In this document: positions 44,793-50,825 of the stretch, one piece after another
How the letters are laid out: every line of letters starts with the position of its first letter
Position numbering within the stretch: position 1 is the first letter of the stretch
DNA from: Armatimonadota bacterium
GTDB taxonomy: Bacteria > Armatimonadota > Zipacnadia > Zipacnadales > JABUFB01
Direction of reading: 5' to 3'
Assembly (NCBI GenBank): GCA_013314775.1
Contig: JABUFB010000008.1
Coordinates: 62,001-126,000 of the forward strand
DNA: 64,000 nt
Position numbers and translations under genes: made by a program
Notes under the pieces: model-generated
Told to the model about the DNA's origin: nothing
What the model saw: the letters and a program-made list of their open reading frames with translations, nothing else
Database searches by the model: none

Positions 44793-44821
44793 TTGACTGT
44801 ATCTCCCCATGACGCTACTAT
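44793..44821 (+). promoter_or_regulatory. Sigma70-type promoter of the sulfur-activation operon
   Basis: TTGACT at 44793-44798, a 17-bp spacer, and TACTAT at 44816-44821, a near-consensus pair 24 bp upstream of the ribbon-helix-helix start codon. The predicted leader is about 17 nt. The 245-bp gap (44600-44844) before it shows no gene. Confidence 0.8.
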
Positions 44822-44844
44822 GAGAGTGTAATAGGAGCGTCTTC

Positions 44845-45078
44845 ATGAACAAGCGATCGCTTGCATCCGACAAGGTGACCATCAAGATCCCGCGCCCGCT
44901 GTATGAAAAGCTTGCAGCCGCGATCGACGGCGCCGGTTACGATTCGGTCACTGACTTTGTGGTGTATGTGCTGCGGGACATTGTCAGCACCCACGGTCTG
45001 ACCCAGGAGTCCCACGCGTTGACGGAGAGCGAGCTCGCCACAGTGAAGGAGCGTCTCCGTTCTCTCGGTTACCTGTGA
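44845..45078 (+). CDS. Small ribbon-helix-helix protein with C-terminal ERLxxLGYL helix
   Basis: A 77-aa CopG/Arc-like protein. Residues ~9-48 (VTIKIPRPLYEKLAAAI, DSVTDFVVYVLRDIV) form one strand and two helices, the ribbon-helix-helix layout. The tail (from about residue 60) is TESELATVKERLRSLGYL, which reappears on the APS kinase of the same operon. RHH proteins bind DNA as dimers and often autoregulate; here the tail suggests it could also serve as an assembly partner. AGGAG at 44833-44837 precedes the ATG, and a strong promoter lies 24 bp away. It is first in the sulfur operon. Confidence 0.88.
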   Translation: MNKRSLASDKVTIKIPRPLYEKLAAAIDGAGYDSVTDFVVYVLRDIVSTHGLTQESHALTESELATVKERLRSLGYL

Positions 45079-45088
45079 GGCGTGGGAA

Positions 45089-45964
45089 ATGAACCTGTTT
45101 CGCAAGCTGTGGACGATCTGTCTGCTGGCAATGGCGGCCGGCCTGCTGTATCTGACGTTGTCCGGCGACCACAAGGGCGTGGCCGCGAACATTGATGACG
45201 GGTCCGGGCTTTGGCTTCTGCTCCTCGTTTGTGCGGGGGCCTTTTTCTGCGAGTACGTTGACTCTGCGCTCGGCATGGGCTACGGTACAACCCTCACACC
45301 TGCGTTGCTGCTACTGGGGTTCCAAACCTCACAGATCGTTCCCGCGGTTCTGGTTTCCGAGTTCCTGTCAGGCATCCTGGCCGGCGTTCTCCACCACAGC
45401 GTCGGGAATGTTACGTTCCGAAAAGGTTCCCGCGACACTCTGGTTCTCGCAGTGCTGGCACTCTGCAGCTTGGTGGGAACCTGTGCTGCGGTGGCGGTGT
45501 CGGTCACTCTGCCGGCCAAGGTGCTGCAGCTTTGGATAGGCGTCCTGGTTGCGGCAATGGGTGTCATCGTGCTGTGGTCGCCTCGATTTGCCTCGGTTTT
45601 TTCATGGCCACGCACGGTGGGGTTGGGGCTGGTGGCTGCCTTCAATAAGGGCTTGAGCGGCGGTGGGTACGGGCCGCTTGTGACCAGCGGGCAGATCCTT
45701 TCCGGAGTGGACCCCAAGCGCTCGGTGGGGATTACCTCGATGGCCGAGGGGCTTGTCTGCCTGGCGGGAGCTGTCCTCTATGTCTGCGTGCGCGAGGGCG
45801 CCATCTACTGGCCGCTTGCCGTGCCGCTTACGGTTGGCGCGCTCTTGTCAGTTCCGTTGGCAACCTGGACGGTCAAGACACTCCCGCCCGTTGACATGCG
45901 CCGGTCCGTGGGGTTTGCGACCCTTTTTCTTGGCCTTCTCACGCTCATCAAGTTGTTCCAATAG
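45089..45964 (+). CDS. TauE/SafE (TSUP) family exporter
   Basis: A 291-aa multispan inner-membrane protein of about eight helices. EYVDSALGMGYGTTLTPALLLLG is the family's first conserved repeat, and LVAAFNKGLSGGGYGPLVTSGQI is the second. TSUP members export sulfite, sulfoacetate or related sulfur anions, or import sulfate-like anions in some bacteria. The operon position before ATP sulfurylase suggests sulfate or sulfite transport. The direction cannot be read from sequence. 10 bp behind the RHH gene. Confidence 0.9.
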   Translation: MNLFRKLWTICLLAMAAGLLYLTLSGDHKGVAANIDDGSGLWLLLLVCAGAFFCEYVDSALGMGYGTTLTPALLLLGFQTSQIVPAVLVSEFLSGILAGVLHHSVGNVTFRKGSRDTLVLAVLALCSLVGTCAAVAVSVTLPAKVLQLWIGVLVAAMGVIVLWSPRFASVFSWPRTVGLGLVAAFNKGLSGGGYGPLVTSGQILSGVDPKRSVGITSMAEGLVCLAGAVLYVCVREGAIYWPLAVPLTVGALLSVPLATWTVKTLPPVDMRRSVGFATLFLGLLTLIKLFQ

Positions 45965-45984
45965 ATAACAAGAGGAGACATACA

Positions 45985-47139
45985 ATGATCGCACCGCATG
46001 GTGGCAAACTGACCGACCGCGTCCTGTGCTGCAGTGCACTTGAGGATGCGAAGAAGGCGGCCGCATCGCTGCCGCAGATCACCGTTGACTATGACACGGC
46101 GCGCGACGCACAGAATATCGCCCGAGGCGTTTTCAGCCCCATCGAAGGTTTCGTGGGCAAGGCGGACCTTGATAGTATCTGCACGAAGAACTGCCTGACA
46201 AGCGGCGTTGCCTGGACGATACCGATCATGCTGGACGTGTCCGATCCGGACGGCATTGAGGCGGGAAAGGACGTCTGCCTCATGCGCGAAGGCAGCGCCG
46301 AGCCCCTGGCGATCATGCACGTGTCCGAAGTCTTCCAGTGGGACAAGGAGAGCTGTGCGAAGGCCGTTTTTGGCACCGACGACATGGCCCACCCGGGCGT
46401 CAAGGGCTACTCCCAGAAGGGTGACTGGCTGGTCGCAGGCGAGATCGACCTCATCGACAATGACCGCGGCCCGTACGCAGACTATAACCTGTTTCCCGCC
46501 GAGACCCGCAAGGTCTTCGAAGAGCGCGGCTGGGCAACCTGCTGCGCCTTCCAGACCCGCAACGTTCCCCACGCGGGCCATGAGACCATGCAGAAGATGG
46601 TGCTTGGCCTGTTCGACGGCCTCTTCATCCAGCCGATTATCGGCAAGAAGAAGCCTGGCGACTTCCAGGACGCCGCCATTCTCAAGGCCTACCAGACCAT
46701 CATCGAGAAGTACTTCAACCCGGAGCGGGTATTCCTGAACATCCTGCCCACCGAGATGCGCTACGCTGGCCCGAAAGAGGCCATTATGCACGCGATCATG
46801 CGCAAGAACTACGGGGCGACCCACATCATCATCGGCCGCGACCACGCCGGGGTAGGCAACTACTACGGCGAGGAGGAGGCCATCGAGATGTTTGACAAGC
46901 CCGAGTTCGCGGACCTGGAAATCAAGCCGGTCAACATCCGCGGAGACTTCTGGTACTGCACCACGTGTGCTGCCGTGGCCAGCAACCGCACGTGCCCGCA
47001 CGGCAAGGATTCTCAGATTCCCTTCAGCGGCACCCTGATTCGCAATGGGATTGTGAACGGCGTCGCGCCCGATGCCCGCATCATGCGGCCGGAAGTGTTC
47101 GAGGTAATACGCAGCTTCGAGAACCCCTTTGTGGACTGA
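45985..47139 (+). CDS. sat: Sulfate adenylyltransferase (ATP sulfurylase), homo-oligomeric type
   Basis: A 384-aa ATP sulfurylase, making APS and pyrophosphate from ATP and sulfate in the cytoplasm. The nucleotide-binding signature QTRNVPHAGHE starts at Gln190; GRDHAGVGNYYG is the second conserved loop. A CTTC, then CPHGK, near the C-terminus matches the zinc-binding C-x2-C-x(n)-C-x-H of thermophile-type Sat enzymes. This is the single-chain Sat, not CysDN. It feeds the APS kinase three genes downstream. Spacing of 20 bp to the TSUP gene indicates one transcript. Confidence 0.97.
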   Translation: MIAPHGGKLTDRVLCCSALEDAKKAAASLPQITVDYDTARDAQNIARGVFSPIEGFVGKADLDSICTKNCLTSGVAWTIPIMLDVSDPDGIEAGKDVCLMREGSAEPLAIMHVSEVFQWDKESCAKAVFGTDDMAHPGVKGYSQKGDWLVAGEIDLIDNDRGPYADYNLFPAETRKVFEERGWATCCAFQTRNVPHAGHETMQKMVLGLFDGLFIQPIIGKKKPGDFQDAAILKAYQTIIEKYFNPERVFLNILPTEMRYAGPKEAIMHAIMRKNYGATHIIIGRDHAGVGNYYGEEEAIEMFDKPEFADLEIKPVNIRGDFWYCTTCAAVASNRTCPHGKDSQIPFSGTLIRNGIVNGVAPDARIMRPEVFEVIRSFENPFVD

Positions 47140-47179
47140 GAGAACCGAACGCGCGAATCTGACCGGGAGACCTGAGCCA

Positions 47180-48571
47180 ATGGCGAAAGCTCAACGCGTG
47201 CTTGTCGTGGGCTGGGACAGCGCCCCACCCAAAGAGCTGTTTGAGGACTGGCGCAAGGACATGCCCAACCTGGATCGCCTGATGAACGAGGGCGTCCACG
47301 GCCTCCTGCGGAGCACTGACCCGCCGATTACGGTGCCGTCATGGTGTTCCATGATGTCATCTCGTAACCCGGGCCAGCTCGGCTTCTACGGCTTCCGGAA
47401 TCGCCGCGTCGGCGAATACACCGGGAAATGGATTGCCAATGCACAGGCCGTGAAGGTGGACCGGGTCTGGGATATCCTGTCCCGCTACGGCAAGCGCTCG
47501 TGCGTGTTCAACGTGCCGCAGACCTACCCCGTCAAGGCGATCAACGGGGTGATGATCTCCAGCTTCCTCACTCCAAGCACCGAGAGCGACTACACTTACC
47601 CCAAGTCGCTCAAGGCCGATGTGGAGCGGGTGTCGGGTGGCTATATCATCGATGTGGACGAGTTCCGCACCGAAGACAAGGCGTGGCTGCTTGATCAGAT
47701 CTACCAGATGACCGAAAAGCGCTTCAAGGTCGCCCAGTTTCTGATGCAGGAAAAGGGTCCGTGGGACTTCTTCATGATGGTCTACATGGGCCCCGATCGC
47801 CTGCAGCATGGGTTCTGGAAGTACATCGACAAGACCCACTCCAAATACGAACCCGGTAATCCCTTCGAGAACGCCGCGCGCGACTACTACGTCCTTCTCG
47901 ACCAGCAACTGGGTGAGCTCATCGCAATGGCAGGGCCCGATACCCGGATCTTCGTGGTCTCTGACCACGGCGCGAAACGCATGGACGGGTCCTTCAACGT
48001 CAATGACTGGCTCATCCAGGAAGGCCTGCTAACACTCAAGGAGCCGCTAACAGGCGTCAGGCGCTTCTCGGAAGAAGACGTCGACTGGTCGAGGACCTTA
48101 GCCTGGGCGTGGGGCGGATACTACGCACGGATATTCATGAACGTGCAAGGGCGTGAACCCGAGGGTATCGTTCCTGCCGATCAGTACGAGGCGGTGCGTG
48201 ACGACCTCGTGCGCAGGCTGGAAGCCACCACCGACCACACTGGGCGCGTCATGAGGACCCGCGCTCTGAAACCCCAGGATATCTTCACCGGGCCTTGCAA
48301 CGACGCCCCCGACCTGTTCGTGTACTTCGACGACCTCTACTGGCGCGCAGGACAAGATGTCGGGCACGACTCCCTGCATTCGTTCGACACCGAGATCGGC
48401 CCGGATGACAGCGTGCACGACTACGACGGCATACTCGTCATGTCTCCCACGGGCAACGCGGGAAGCCGAGTGGAAGGCGCGCAGGTGATGGATATCGCGC
48501 CGACCATCCTGGACACCCTCGGGGTGCCGGTGCCCAAGGAGATGGAAGGCAAGATCATCGCGACGGATTAG
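47180..48571 (+). CDS. AlkP-superfamily phosphohydrolase/phosphodiesterase A
   Basis: A 463-aa protein of the type I phosphodiesterase/nucleotide pyrophosphatase (COG3379-like) group. The metal and nucleophile residues of the fold are recognisable: VGWDSAP (Asp13), ITVPSW (Thr51 as nucleophile), MGPDRLQHGFW (Asp and His), SDHGAKRMDG (Asp and His) and GHDSLHSF. No signal peptide, so cytoplasmic. Enzymes of this fold cut phosphodiesters or phosphate/sulfate esters; the position between Sat and APS kinase suggests an adenylyl-sulfate-type or PAP-related substrate, an inference. ATG 47180 replaces an upstream TTG-like frame because GGGAGA lies ~10 bases before. Confidence 0.85.
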   Translation: MAKAQRVLVVGWDSAPPKELFEDWRKDMPNLDRLMNEGVHGLLRSTDPPITVPSWCSMMSSRNPGQLGFYGFRNRRVGEYTGKWIANAQAVKVDRVWDILSRYGKRSCVFNVPQTYPVKAINGVMISSFLTPSTESDYTYPKSLKADVERVSGGYIIDVDEFRTEDKAWLLDQIYQMTEKRFKVAQFLMQEKGPWDFFMMVYMGPDRLQHGFWKYIDKTHSKYEPGNPFENAARDYYVLLDQQLGELIAMAGPDTRIFVVSDHGAKRMDGSFNVNDWLIQEGLLTLKEPLTGVRRFSEEDVDWSRTLAWAWGGYYARIFMNVQGREPEGIVPADQYEAVRDDLVRRLEATTDHTGRVMRTRALKPQDIFTGPCNDAPDLFVYFDDLYWRAGQDVGHDSLHSFDTEIGPDDSVHDYDGILVMSPTGNAGSRVEGAQVMDIAPTILDTLGVPVPKEMEGKIIATD

Positions 48572-48657
48572 CACCGGCCAATCACCAGCGGCCGCTCCGC
48601 CAAATTCGTGCATGAACTCAGGCACTGACCCACACAAACAAACAAAGGAGACTTACC

Positions 48658-49281
48658 ATGGTAGAACCCGGCGCTGTCGTATGGTTTACCGGAGTGCCCG
48701 CTTCAGGCAAGTCCACCGTCGCAACCCTGGTCGAGGAGAAGCTGCGGGCGATGGGCTGTCTCGTGGAGAATCTGGACGCGGACGAAGTGCGCCAGAATCT
48801 CAGCCCGAATCTCGGCTTTACTCCGGAGGCCCGCGACGAGAATACCAAACGTCTCGCGTGGATGGGCAAGATCCTGTCGCGCAATGGCGTACACGTGTTG
48901 ATTGCCGCCGTGGCCCCGATGCGCTATTACCGGGATCGGGCCCGCGAATGGTGTCCGCGCTTCGTCGAGGTCTTCACAACTGCGCCGTTCGAAGTCTGCA
49001 AGGAGCGCGACCCCAAAGGCCTGTACGCGCGTGGTGAGCGCGGCGAGATCAATGACATCGCCGGTTGGCACCAGCCATACGAAGAGCCTGAGAACCCGGA
49101 GGTCGTCCTTCCGACCCACGAGCTAGATCTGGAGACCTGCGCCAATATGGTCATCGCCAAACTCAGGGAGCTTGGGTACCTGTCCTGCGATGGCGGTTGC
49201 GGTTGCGGCTGCGACGACGGCTACACGGCCGAAGAGCAGGCGAAGGTCGAAGAGCGGCTCAAGGACCTGGGTTACATGTAG
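48658..49281 (+). CDS. cysC: Adenylyl-sulfate kinase with Cys-rich linker and C-terminal ERLxxLGYM helix
   Basis: A 207-aa APS kinase, which makes PAPS from APS and ATP. Walker A is GVPASGKST; DADEVRQNLSPNLGFTPEAR is the APS-binding loop, and DPKGLYARGERGEINDIAGWHQPYE the lid region, all as in CysC. The canonical enzyme ends near residue 175 (LRELGYL); a 32-residue extension follows with Cys177, Cys181, Cys183 and Cys185 in SCDGGCGCGCDDG, then TAEEQAKVEERLKDLGYM. The extension is unusual; the last helix matches the RHH protein at 44845. AAAGGAG precedes the start. 86 bp after the first AlkP gene. Confidence 0.95.
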   Translation: MVEPGAVVWFTGVPASGKSTVATLVEEKLRAMGCLVENLDADEVRQNLSPNLGFTPEARDENTKRLAWMGKILSRNGVHVLIAAVAPMRYYRDRAREWCPRFVEVFTTAPFEVCKERDPKGLYARGERGEINDIAGWHQPYEEPENPEVVLPTHELDLETCANMVIAKLRELGYLSCDGGCGCGCDDGYTAEEQAKVEERLKDLGYM

Positions 49282-49469: not shown

Positions 49470-50825
49470 ATGGGTCTGCTTGGATTCCTCAAGAAGCGTC
49501 CTGCGAAGCCCCGGGTCATGATCGTCGGCCTGGATGGTGTGCCCCGTTCATTCCTGGCGAAACAGATTGCTGCCGGCAAGATGCCTAACCTTGCGAACCT
49601 CGCAAGCAAGGGCAGCCTCGTGCAGGCAGATTCCATTCACCCATGCGTGTCCTGCGTGGCCTGGACGAGTTACGCCACTGGGTGCAACCCTGGCAAGCAT
49701 GGCATCTTCGGATTCCAGGATCGCAAGCCTGGCACCTATGACACCTACATCGCAACCGGGGCCCACATGAAATCAGAGACCATGTGGGAGGTCCTGAGCC
49801 GGCGCGGCAAGCGGGTCATCGCCCTGAACATTCCCGGTAGCTACCCTCCGAAGCCAGTGAATGGCCTGATGGTCGGCGATTTCCTGTCGCCGCGTCTTGA
49901 AGGCGCAACCTATCCCGCTGAACTCGCTTCGCGCCTGGAGGCAATGGGGTACCGTATCGACATCGACCCCGCAAGGGGCCGGCAGGACGACAAAGGGCCG
50001 CTCATCGAGGACTTGCATGAAACCCTCGCGGCCCGCAAGCGCACCATGTTCGCCCTGATGAGGGACGAAGCGTGGGACGTGATGCAGGTGCATTTCATGG
50101 GTACTGACCGCATCGCGCACTTTCTCATCGAGCAATGGGAACAGGGCGACCCGCGCTACGCCCCGGAGTTCGAGCGTTACTTCGCGGCCATCGACGACAT
50201 GCTGGGCGAACTCGACGCGGAGCTCGATGAGAGCACCGCGCTGCTCTCCTTGAGCGACCACGGGTTCTGCTCCATCAAGCGCGAGGTGTTCGTGAACCGC
50301 TGGCTGCAGGAGAGCGGCTTCCTGGAGCAACTCGCGGGCGAACGGCCGAAACTCGACCAGTTGACGACCGCCAGCCGCGCATATTCCATGGATCCCGGGC
50401 GTATCTACGTGAACCTCAAGGGACGTGAGCCCAACGGTTCCGTGGAGCCAGGCGCCGAATACGAGGCTTTGGTGGCTGAACTCACCGAGGCCCTTCTCGC
50501 GATGACCTGCCCGGAGACGGGGGAGCGTGTCGTTTCCCAGGTGCTGAGACGGGATGAGCTTTTCCACGGACCCCACGCGGCACAAGGGCCCGATCTCGTG
50601 GCGTACCCCTTCGACGGGTATGACCTCAAAGGCCAACTGGGGCGCCCGGAGGTCTTCTACAAGGGCAGTCTGGTGGGCATGCACACCTTCAACGACGCCT
50701 TCTGGTATGTCCGCGGGCGCGAGTTCAACGATCGCCCGAAGGTAATGGACGGCGCACCGACGGTCTTTGCGCTTCTTGGCGAAGAGCCTGAACCGGGAAT
50801 GGATGGCGAACCGAGGGTGGGATAG
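49470..50825 (+). CDS. AlkP-superfamily phosphohydrolase/phosphodiesterase B
   Basis: A 451-aa paralogue of the protein at 47180. VGLDGVP (Asp22) and MGTDRIAHFL, LSDHGFCS and GMHTFND carry the metal ligands. The nucleophile position has Ser (Ser61 in CVSCVAW) instead of the Thr of the first copy, so the two may differ in substrate. No signal peptide; the N-terminus is a short basic stretch (MGLLGFLKKRPAKPR). GGAGA just before ATG 49470 is the only plausible site; the upstream frame crosses the hairpin. TatD follows after 24 bp. Confidence 0.85.
   Translation: MGLLGFLKKRPAKPRVMIVGLDGVPRSFLAKQIAAGKMPNLANLASKGSLVQADSIHPCVSCVAWTSYATGCNPGKHGIFGFQDRKPGTYDTYIATGAHMKSETMWEVLSRRGKRVIALNIPGSYPPKPVNGLMVGDFLSPRLEGATYPAELASRLEAMGYRIDIDPARGRQDDKGPLIEDLHETLAARKRTMFALMRDEAWDVMQVHFMGTDRIAHFLIEQWEQGDPRYAPEFERYFAAIDDMLGELDAELDESTALLSLSDHGFCSIKREVFVNRWLQESGFLEQLAGERPKLDQLTTASRAYSMDPGRIYVNLKGREPNGSVEPGAEYEALVAELTEALLAMTCPETGERVVSQVLRRDELFHGPHAAQGPDLVAYPFDGYDLKGQLGRPEVFYKGSLVGMHTFNDAFWYVRGREFNDRPKVMDGAPTVFALLGEEPEPGMDGEPRVG

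Follow-up and report, generated by a model that had tools for sequence, protein, structure and literature searches.

A C-terminal helix shared by ribbon-helix-helix proteins, APS kinases and alkaline phosphatase superfamily enzymes points to a possible docking tag for sulfation

Terminal helices or peptides on flexible linkers address cargo in microcompartments and encapsulins, where they have been moved between enzymes. In sulfur metabolism, CysE, CdiA-CT and CymR all dock on a single enzyme, CysK, which sets a precedent both for a shared C-terminal residue and for a complex between an enzyme and a repressor (PMC4961446). In Halobacterium, two proteins of the alkaline phosphatase (AP) superfamily, the membrane protein VNG1056C and the soluble VNG1057C, act as N-glycan sulfotransferases, as gene deletion and expression in Haloferax established (PMC11980604). 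Here we describe an 18-residue C-terminal helix, hereafter the tag, found in a 64-kb window (positions 62001-126000 of contig 8) of the genome of an Armatimonadota bacterium (6.1 Mb, 98.5% complete). In this window the tag ends two proteins of an operon-like row of plus-strand genes, a ribbon-helix-helix (RHH) protein and the adenosine 5'-phosphosulfate (APS) kinase CysC. Based on open reading frames (ORFs) and on Pfam and family profiles, the row consists of RHH, a TauE-type permease, Sat, AP1, CysC and AP2, with AP1 and AP2 belonging to the AP superfamily (Table 1).

A terminal helix carried by three protein families

The endings of the RHH protein (TESELATVKERLRSLGYL) and of CysC (TAEEQAKVEERLKDLGYM) are identical at 10 of 18 positions, and both ORFs and their ends are exactly as the original prediction had them. 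Across all frames of the window no other ORF has this terminus, and the single further L-x-x-LGY lies inside CysC (AKLRELGYL). The consensus of the tag is [Y/L][S/T]EEExxx[V/I]xxRL[R/K]xLGY[L/I/M]-COOH, with an LGY-[LIMV] ending that is sometimes followed by 1-2 extra residues. The literature searched gave no description of the motif itself, of an RHH protein with sulfate genes or of a tagged APS kinase.

Genomes were searched with the pattern [RS]-L-x2-L-G-Y-[hydrophobic]-stop, and the reversed pattern served as the control. In the window genome four ORFs match, namely the RHH protein, CysC and two type-I phosphodiesterase proteins of the AP superfamily. In 61 Armatimonadota-type genomes (relatives) the terminal pattern gave 118 matches and the reversed pattern 7. 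When the context of the 104 distinct true-stop matches was read, AP-superfamily proteins accounted for 49, RHH proteins for 32, CysC for 13 and others for 10, the RHH share being inflated because the sample partly comes from genomes picked for holding an RHH gene. AP-superfamily enzymes are the largest carrier family. The 10 others are mostly short junk frames, together with a truncated protein that is probably a carrier and one genuine but unrelated family, represented by two orthologues, which reads as probably Kdo-transferase-like. With 94 of 104 matches in three families, a random spread over protein families, the outcome set against the original prediction, was not observed. The motif stands 1-3 residues from the stop in 82/88 RHH proteins and in 66/67 tagged AP proteins.

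The similarity between families extends upstream of the core. For the 11 residues preceding RLxxLGY, RHH and CysC scored 2.95 as compared with 1.26 for column-shuffled controls (maximum 2.32), and RHH and AP scored 2.07 (shuffled maximum 1.88), both in clear excess. The value for CysC and AP, 2.21, was marginally under the shuffled maximum of 2.29. The counts, the confinement to three families and the upstream similarity confirm that the tag is real and not a product of chance.

The window CysC keeps its APS_kinase domain and P-loop (GxxxxGKST). Tagged CysC was found in Omnitrophota, Poribacteria, Thermoanaerobaculaceae, KSB1, Latescibacterota, Sumerlaeota and Gemmatimonadota, and the CysC of many Zipacnadia is untagged. 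A tree built from 53 CysC catalytic domains requires a minimum of 8 changes in tag state, and 3 of the changes are forced by well-supported branches; CysC has repeatedly acquired or lost the tag. In AlphaFold models the tag helix is separate from the body both in the window CysC (residues 191-203) and in a tagged AP enzyme of the same genome (residues 532-545), and the stretch ahead of it has a predicted local distance difference test score (pLDDT) below 50 in each. The canonical last helix of CysC, by comparison, belongs to the body of the model. The tag is not simply each family's own final helix, since a disordered linker precedes it and many CysC homologues do without it. It is thus well supported as a transferable, detachable terminal helix, in agreement with the original prediction, which had also placed the tag of the kinase behind an added Cys-rich linker. 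The possibility that the tag is part of the CysC fold was rejected based on the model and on the patchy presence of the tag among homologues. One proposal of the original prediction did not hold, that LRELGYL just before the linker is a further copy of the tag. The stretch is instead the helix in which APS kinases ordinarily end, found also in untagged homologues, and the APS kinase structure 7yq0 ends in KLMELGYL.

Two observations concern the sulfate enzymes themselves. The Cys pattern of the CysC linker (SCDGGCGCGC) is restricted to this genus, other tagged CysC proteins having no cysteines there, and the linker is a possible metal site. CysD, the small subunit of ATP sulfurylase, ends in RHH loci with YTMQKLRALGYM (L162 12434-13237; L169; L145; L131; L150), which resembles the tag more than the usual CysD terminus does (1zun: SMEEKKRQGY). 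The tag may have originated from the canonical ends of CysC and CysD.

Clustering with sulfate genes and a conserved operator

A scan for the tag-bearing RHH family found 255 places, and the best 80 of these cover about 20 phyla. RHH loci recurrently hold sat, AP1, cysC and AP2, and AP1 adjoins RHH/CysC genes in many phyla. A tagged RHH gene and a tagged cysC lie within about 4 kb of each other in Poribacteria, KSB1, Omnitrophota, Sumerlaeota and others; the two are the only matches in one poribacterial genome of 5.2 Mb, where 3.3 kb separates them. The search across genomes thus bore out the expected clustering of proteins having this ending with sat/cysC. The original prediction recognised the tag on the RHH protein and CysC and missed the AP carriers, the haloarchaeal occurrences and the RHH operator. 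Its interpretation is supported in part, with co-assembly, targeting and degradation as candidate meanings of the tag. At two loci (L129 and L168) the RHH gene adjoins Pst-like ABC transporter genes in place of sat/cysC.

The RHH family profile matches NikR (2bj1) over the RHH core with an E value of 9e-4, and Pfam RHH_1 and RHH_8 match it weakly (best E 0.006). The window RHH sequence searched alone gave no match in a Pfam-type profile search. A second small RHH-like family, of 63-82 residues in most loci, is also tag-ended (KKLQGLGYIS; L178 9270-9518; L163 7463-7654; L128 18458-18667; L134 13894-14085; L159; L181). It adjoins two large AP enzymes, of which one has membrane segments and the other a Tat-like start, and its neighbour in the loci examined is a weakly EMC3-like membrane protein of about 272 residues.

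Across phyla, RHH genes are preceded by a conserved element whose full form is CACTCTTATAGGAGTGTTATAGGAGTGT, with GAGTG half sites at an 11-bp spacing. The dyad ACTC-N6-GAGT occurs in 24 of 77 RHH upstream regions (120 bp). The 17-mer GAGTGTTATAGGAGTGT with up to 4 mismatches occurs in 28 of 77 regions (70 bp) as compared with 0.35% of random places. The window copy lies directly 3' of the -10-like TACTAT. Because this operator is conserved upstream of RHH genes, the RHH protein, judging from sequence, very likely represses its own operon and so regulates itself. Most of the 12 genomes tested have no good 17-mer site other than the one at the RHH gene, and a wide RHH regulon was rejected on this ground; neither a second match in the window genome, at C10:309045, nor the additional ones in G078 resemble promoter sites. 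In one genome (G045) the operator directly precedes the gene for an SsuA-type aliphatic-sulfonate binding protein (L298 434-1504), which suggests that the RHH protein also controls sulfur import.

The tag is also present on haloarchaeal plasmids, inside glycan clusters, where it is carried by sulfatase-like AP proteins, by an AP-like family of about 308 residues and by RHH proteins. In two haloarchaeal genera, the gene immediately upstream of the tagged RHH gene encodes a prenyltransferase/squalene-oxidase-repeat protein (L286 7950-8993; L297 4823-5983).

Table 1. Positions of the genes and elements of the locus within the window
Feature	Position	Strand	Basis or remark
Promoter-like TTGACT (44793-44798), 17-bp spacer, TACTAT (44816-44821)	44793..44821	+	inferred from sequence
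RHH operator copy GAGTGTAATAGGAGCGT, consensus GAGTGTTATAGGAGTGT	44824..44840	+	sole window match (expected 0.03)
RHH protein, 77 aa	44845..45078	+	family kept across about 20 phyla; profile similar to NikR
RHH C-terminal tag TESELATVKERLRSLGYL, residues 60-77	45022..45075	+	ORF and alignment
TauE/SafE-type anion (sulfate/sulfite) permease	45089..45964	+	Pfam PF01925, E 2e-28
Sat, ATP sulfurylase	45985..47139	+	PF01747, NF003166
AP1, untagged cytosolic AP-superfamily enzyme, type I phosphodiesterase family	47180..48571 (start inferred)	+	PF01663, E 3e-42
CysC, APS kinase with C-terminal extension	48658..49281	+	PF01583, E 2e-49
Canonical APS kinase end AKLRELGYL, ordinary family helix	49156..49182	+	helix 158-171, pLDDT about 98
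CysC Cys-rich linker SCDGGCGCGCDDGY, predicted disordered	49183..49224	+	pLDDT <50 at residues 177-188
CysC C-terminal tag TAEEQAKVEERLKDLGYM, residues 190-207	49225..49278	+	separate helix 191-203 in model
AP2, second untagged AP-superfamily enzyme	49470..50825 (start inferred; ORF opens 49293)	+	PF01663, E 6e-41

A proposed sulfation module and its alternatives

What, then, would a kinase, a repressor and AP-superfamily enzymes share? The tagged AP proteins have no signal peptide (judged by eye from the N-termini, with one membrane exception) and begin at the first strand of the fold. The neighbours of their genes include glycosyltransferases, Wzz and DegT aminotransferases, and a model of one tagged AP relative matches phosphonoacetate hydrolase and NPP. 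The window genome possesses Sat and CysC, the enzymes for making 3'-phosphoadenosine 5'-phosphosulfate (PAPS). The PAPS reductase family PF01507, present in 14/14 control genomes, was not found in it, nor were Sulfotransfer_1 (PF00685) and Sulfotransfer_3 (PF13469), with other families, such as PF03567 and PF09037, not searched. PAPS made in such a cell would need another consumer, and the AP enzymes are natural candidates. The bacterial cytosolic AP enzymes, namely AP1, AP2 and their tagged relatives, are most likely PAPS-using transferases.

With moderate confidence we propose that the shared ending acts as a modular docking tag at the C-terminus, belonging to a sulfation module that depends on PAPS. 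PAPS would be made in the cytosol by Sat and CysC and used there by AP1 and AP2 as well as by their tagged relatives in polysaccharide clusters. The tag, as an amphipathic helix with a G-Y cap and a free-carboxyl end on a flexible linker, would dock CysC, many AP enzymes and the RHH repressor onto one common partner surface, so that PAPS would be made at the site of its use. The RHH protein would repress its own operon and, bearing the same tag, would compete with the enzymes for the partner. Such competition would report the amount of sulfation machinery, comparable to the binding of CysK by CymR. More tentatively, one helix may join AP sulfotransferases, the PAPS kinase and the RHH protein in a domain-crossing C-terminal docking code for glycan sulfation that reports assembly to the promoter.

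Several points weigh against the docking proposal. AP1 and AP2 of the operon itself are untagged, and only 2 of the 35 PF01663-like matches in the window genome (G000), a sizeable collection of AP-superfamily proteins, carry the tag. Many CysC proteins of RHH genomes are without it, and some RHH genes are located away from sat/cysC. AP-type sulfotransferases have been proven in Halobacterium only, and these worked with C-terminal affinity tags added (PMC11980604). The sulfotransferase families left out of the search above count on the same side. No binding partner was found, and the models of the tag are of single chains. A complementation scheme, in which an AP enzyme beside a tagged RHH gene loses its own tag, was considered as well and gave no signal (3/59 tagged beside RHH vs 2/35 genome-wide).

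Could the shared ending have arisen from unrelated helices that happen to have the same cap? L-x-x-LG-hydrophobic is a common helix C-cap, and the canonical CysC and CysD ends resemble the tag. Convergence or chance is nevertheless extremely improbable and was rejected, given the 118 vs 7 matches, the confinement to three families, the repeated co-location in one operon and the similarity upstream of the core as compared with shuffled controls. Among functional alternatives, the tag may bind itself, with the tail helices of tagged proteins forming a bundle that holds these proteins together and makes a separate receptor unnecessary. This reading accounts for the presence of the tag on pathway proteins only and draws on the hydrophobic residues at a/d-like spacing in the consensus, as well as on the C-terminal tails that oligomerise AP-superfamily sulfatases such as choline sulfatase (PMC5870055). 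The invariant RLxxLGY close to the carboxyl group, however, suggests a pocket over a simple bundle, and single-chain models do not speak to a bundle; we consider self-binding rather unlikely.

A C-terminal degradation signal would also suit a separate helix on a flexible linker, a motif 1-3 residues from the free carboxyl in nearly all carriers, and a distribution over the regulator and the enzymes of one pathway. A protease or adaptor would read the LGY-hydrophobic end and clear the repressor, the PAPS kinase and the AP enzymes jointly when the sulfate supply shifts. A general signal, however, would be expected on unrelated proteins, whereas the tag is confined to sulfate-linked families. Recognition of the signal would also be required both in haloarchaea and across many bacterial phyla, and the conservation covers the full 18-residue helix beyond the last residues. 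On balance this explanation is unlikely. The location of carriers in polysaccharide and N-glycan clusters is compatible with the tag bringing soluble enzymes to a place, for instance membrane glycan machinery or a shell compartment, and terminal helices that address cargo are familiar from microcompartments and encapsulins. Such targeting is highly doubtful in view of the DNA-binding repressor that also carries the tag and of the cluster neighbours, among which there are no shell genes (the whole genome was not searched for them).

The evidence as a whole, from many bacterial phyla (tag on RHH, CysC and AP proteins) and haloarchaea (tag on RHH and AP proteins), points to a docking tag, previously undescribed, for a sulfation machine. 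Through its sequence, the tag would give access to a sulfation route in the cytosol that annotation overlooks, in genomes that make PAPS and have none of its usual consumers. AP-fold enzymes labelled as sulfatases or phosphodiesterases may actually add sulfate. The presence of one tag on enzyme, kinase and repressor makes signalling from enzyme to regulator testable, and the operator makes the regulon predictable across many uncultured phyla.

Comparison with described systems

The cargo peptides of microcompartments and encapsulins are similar to the tag in that they too are short terminal elements, helices or peptides, that are attached by a flexible linker and have been moved among enzymes. 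They differ from it in sequence, and here a repressor is among the carriers and the cluster neighbours include no shell. The CysE/CysK and CymR-CysK systems likewise belong to a sulfur pathway, with a short C-terminal motif at the free carboxyl of several proteins and binding between an enzyme and a repressor (PMC4961446). Whereas the CysE-type peptide has a terminal Ile and binds the CysK active site, the tag is an 18-residue terminal helix that finishes in LGY-[LIMV] and is carried by AP enzymes, by an RHH repressor and by a kinase, and there is no homology. The two would at most work in a similar way, and the tag is not a member of the CysE type.

VNG1056C and VNG1057C share with the present proteins a sulfatase-like fold in glycan clusters, one of the two being soluble (PMC11980604), and similar haloarchaeal plasmid proteins are tagged. 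AP1 and AP2 match PF01663, the model of a tagged relative has an AP-superfamily fold, and tagged proteins have no signal peptide, as expected of soluble cytosolic enzymes of this type. AP1 and AP2, however, belong to the phosphodiesterase branch and are untagged, and the likeness is one of fold and context. Choline sulfatase, an enzyme of the AP superfamily, also has a helical C-terminal tail, through which contacts are made in trans (PMC5870055). That tail is family-specific and contiguous with the fold, whereas the tag is also found on RHH proteins and CysC and stands behind a disordered linker. Finally, the window RHH family appears to share with the NikR, CopG and MetJ repressors both the RHH core and a conserved operator at the promoter. 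Unlike them, it has no ligand-binding domain and adds the C-terminal tag.

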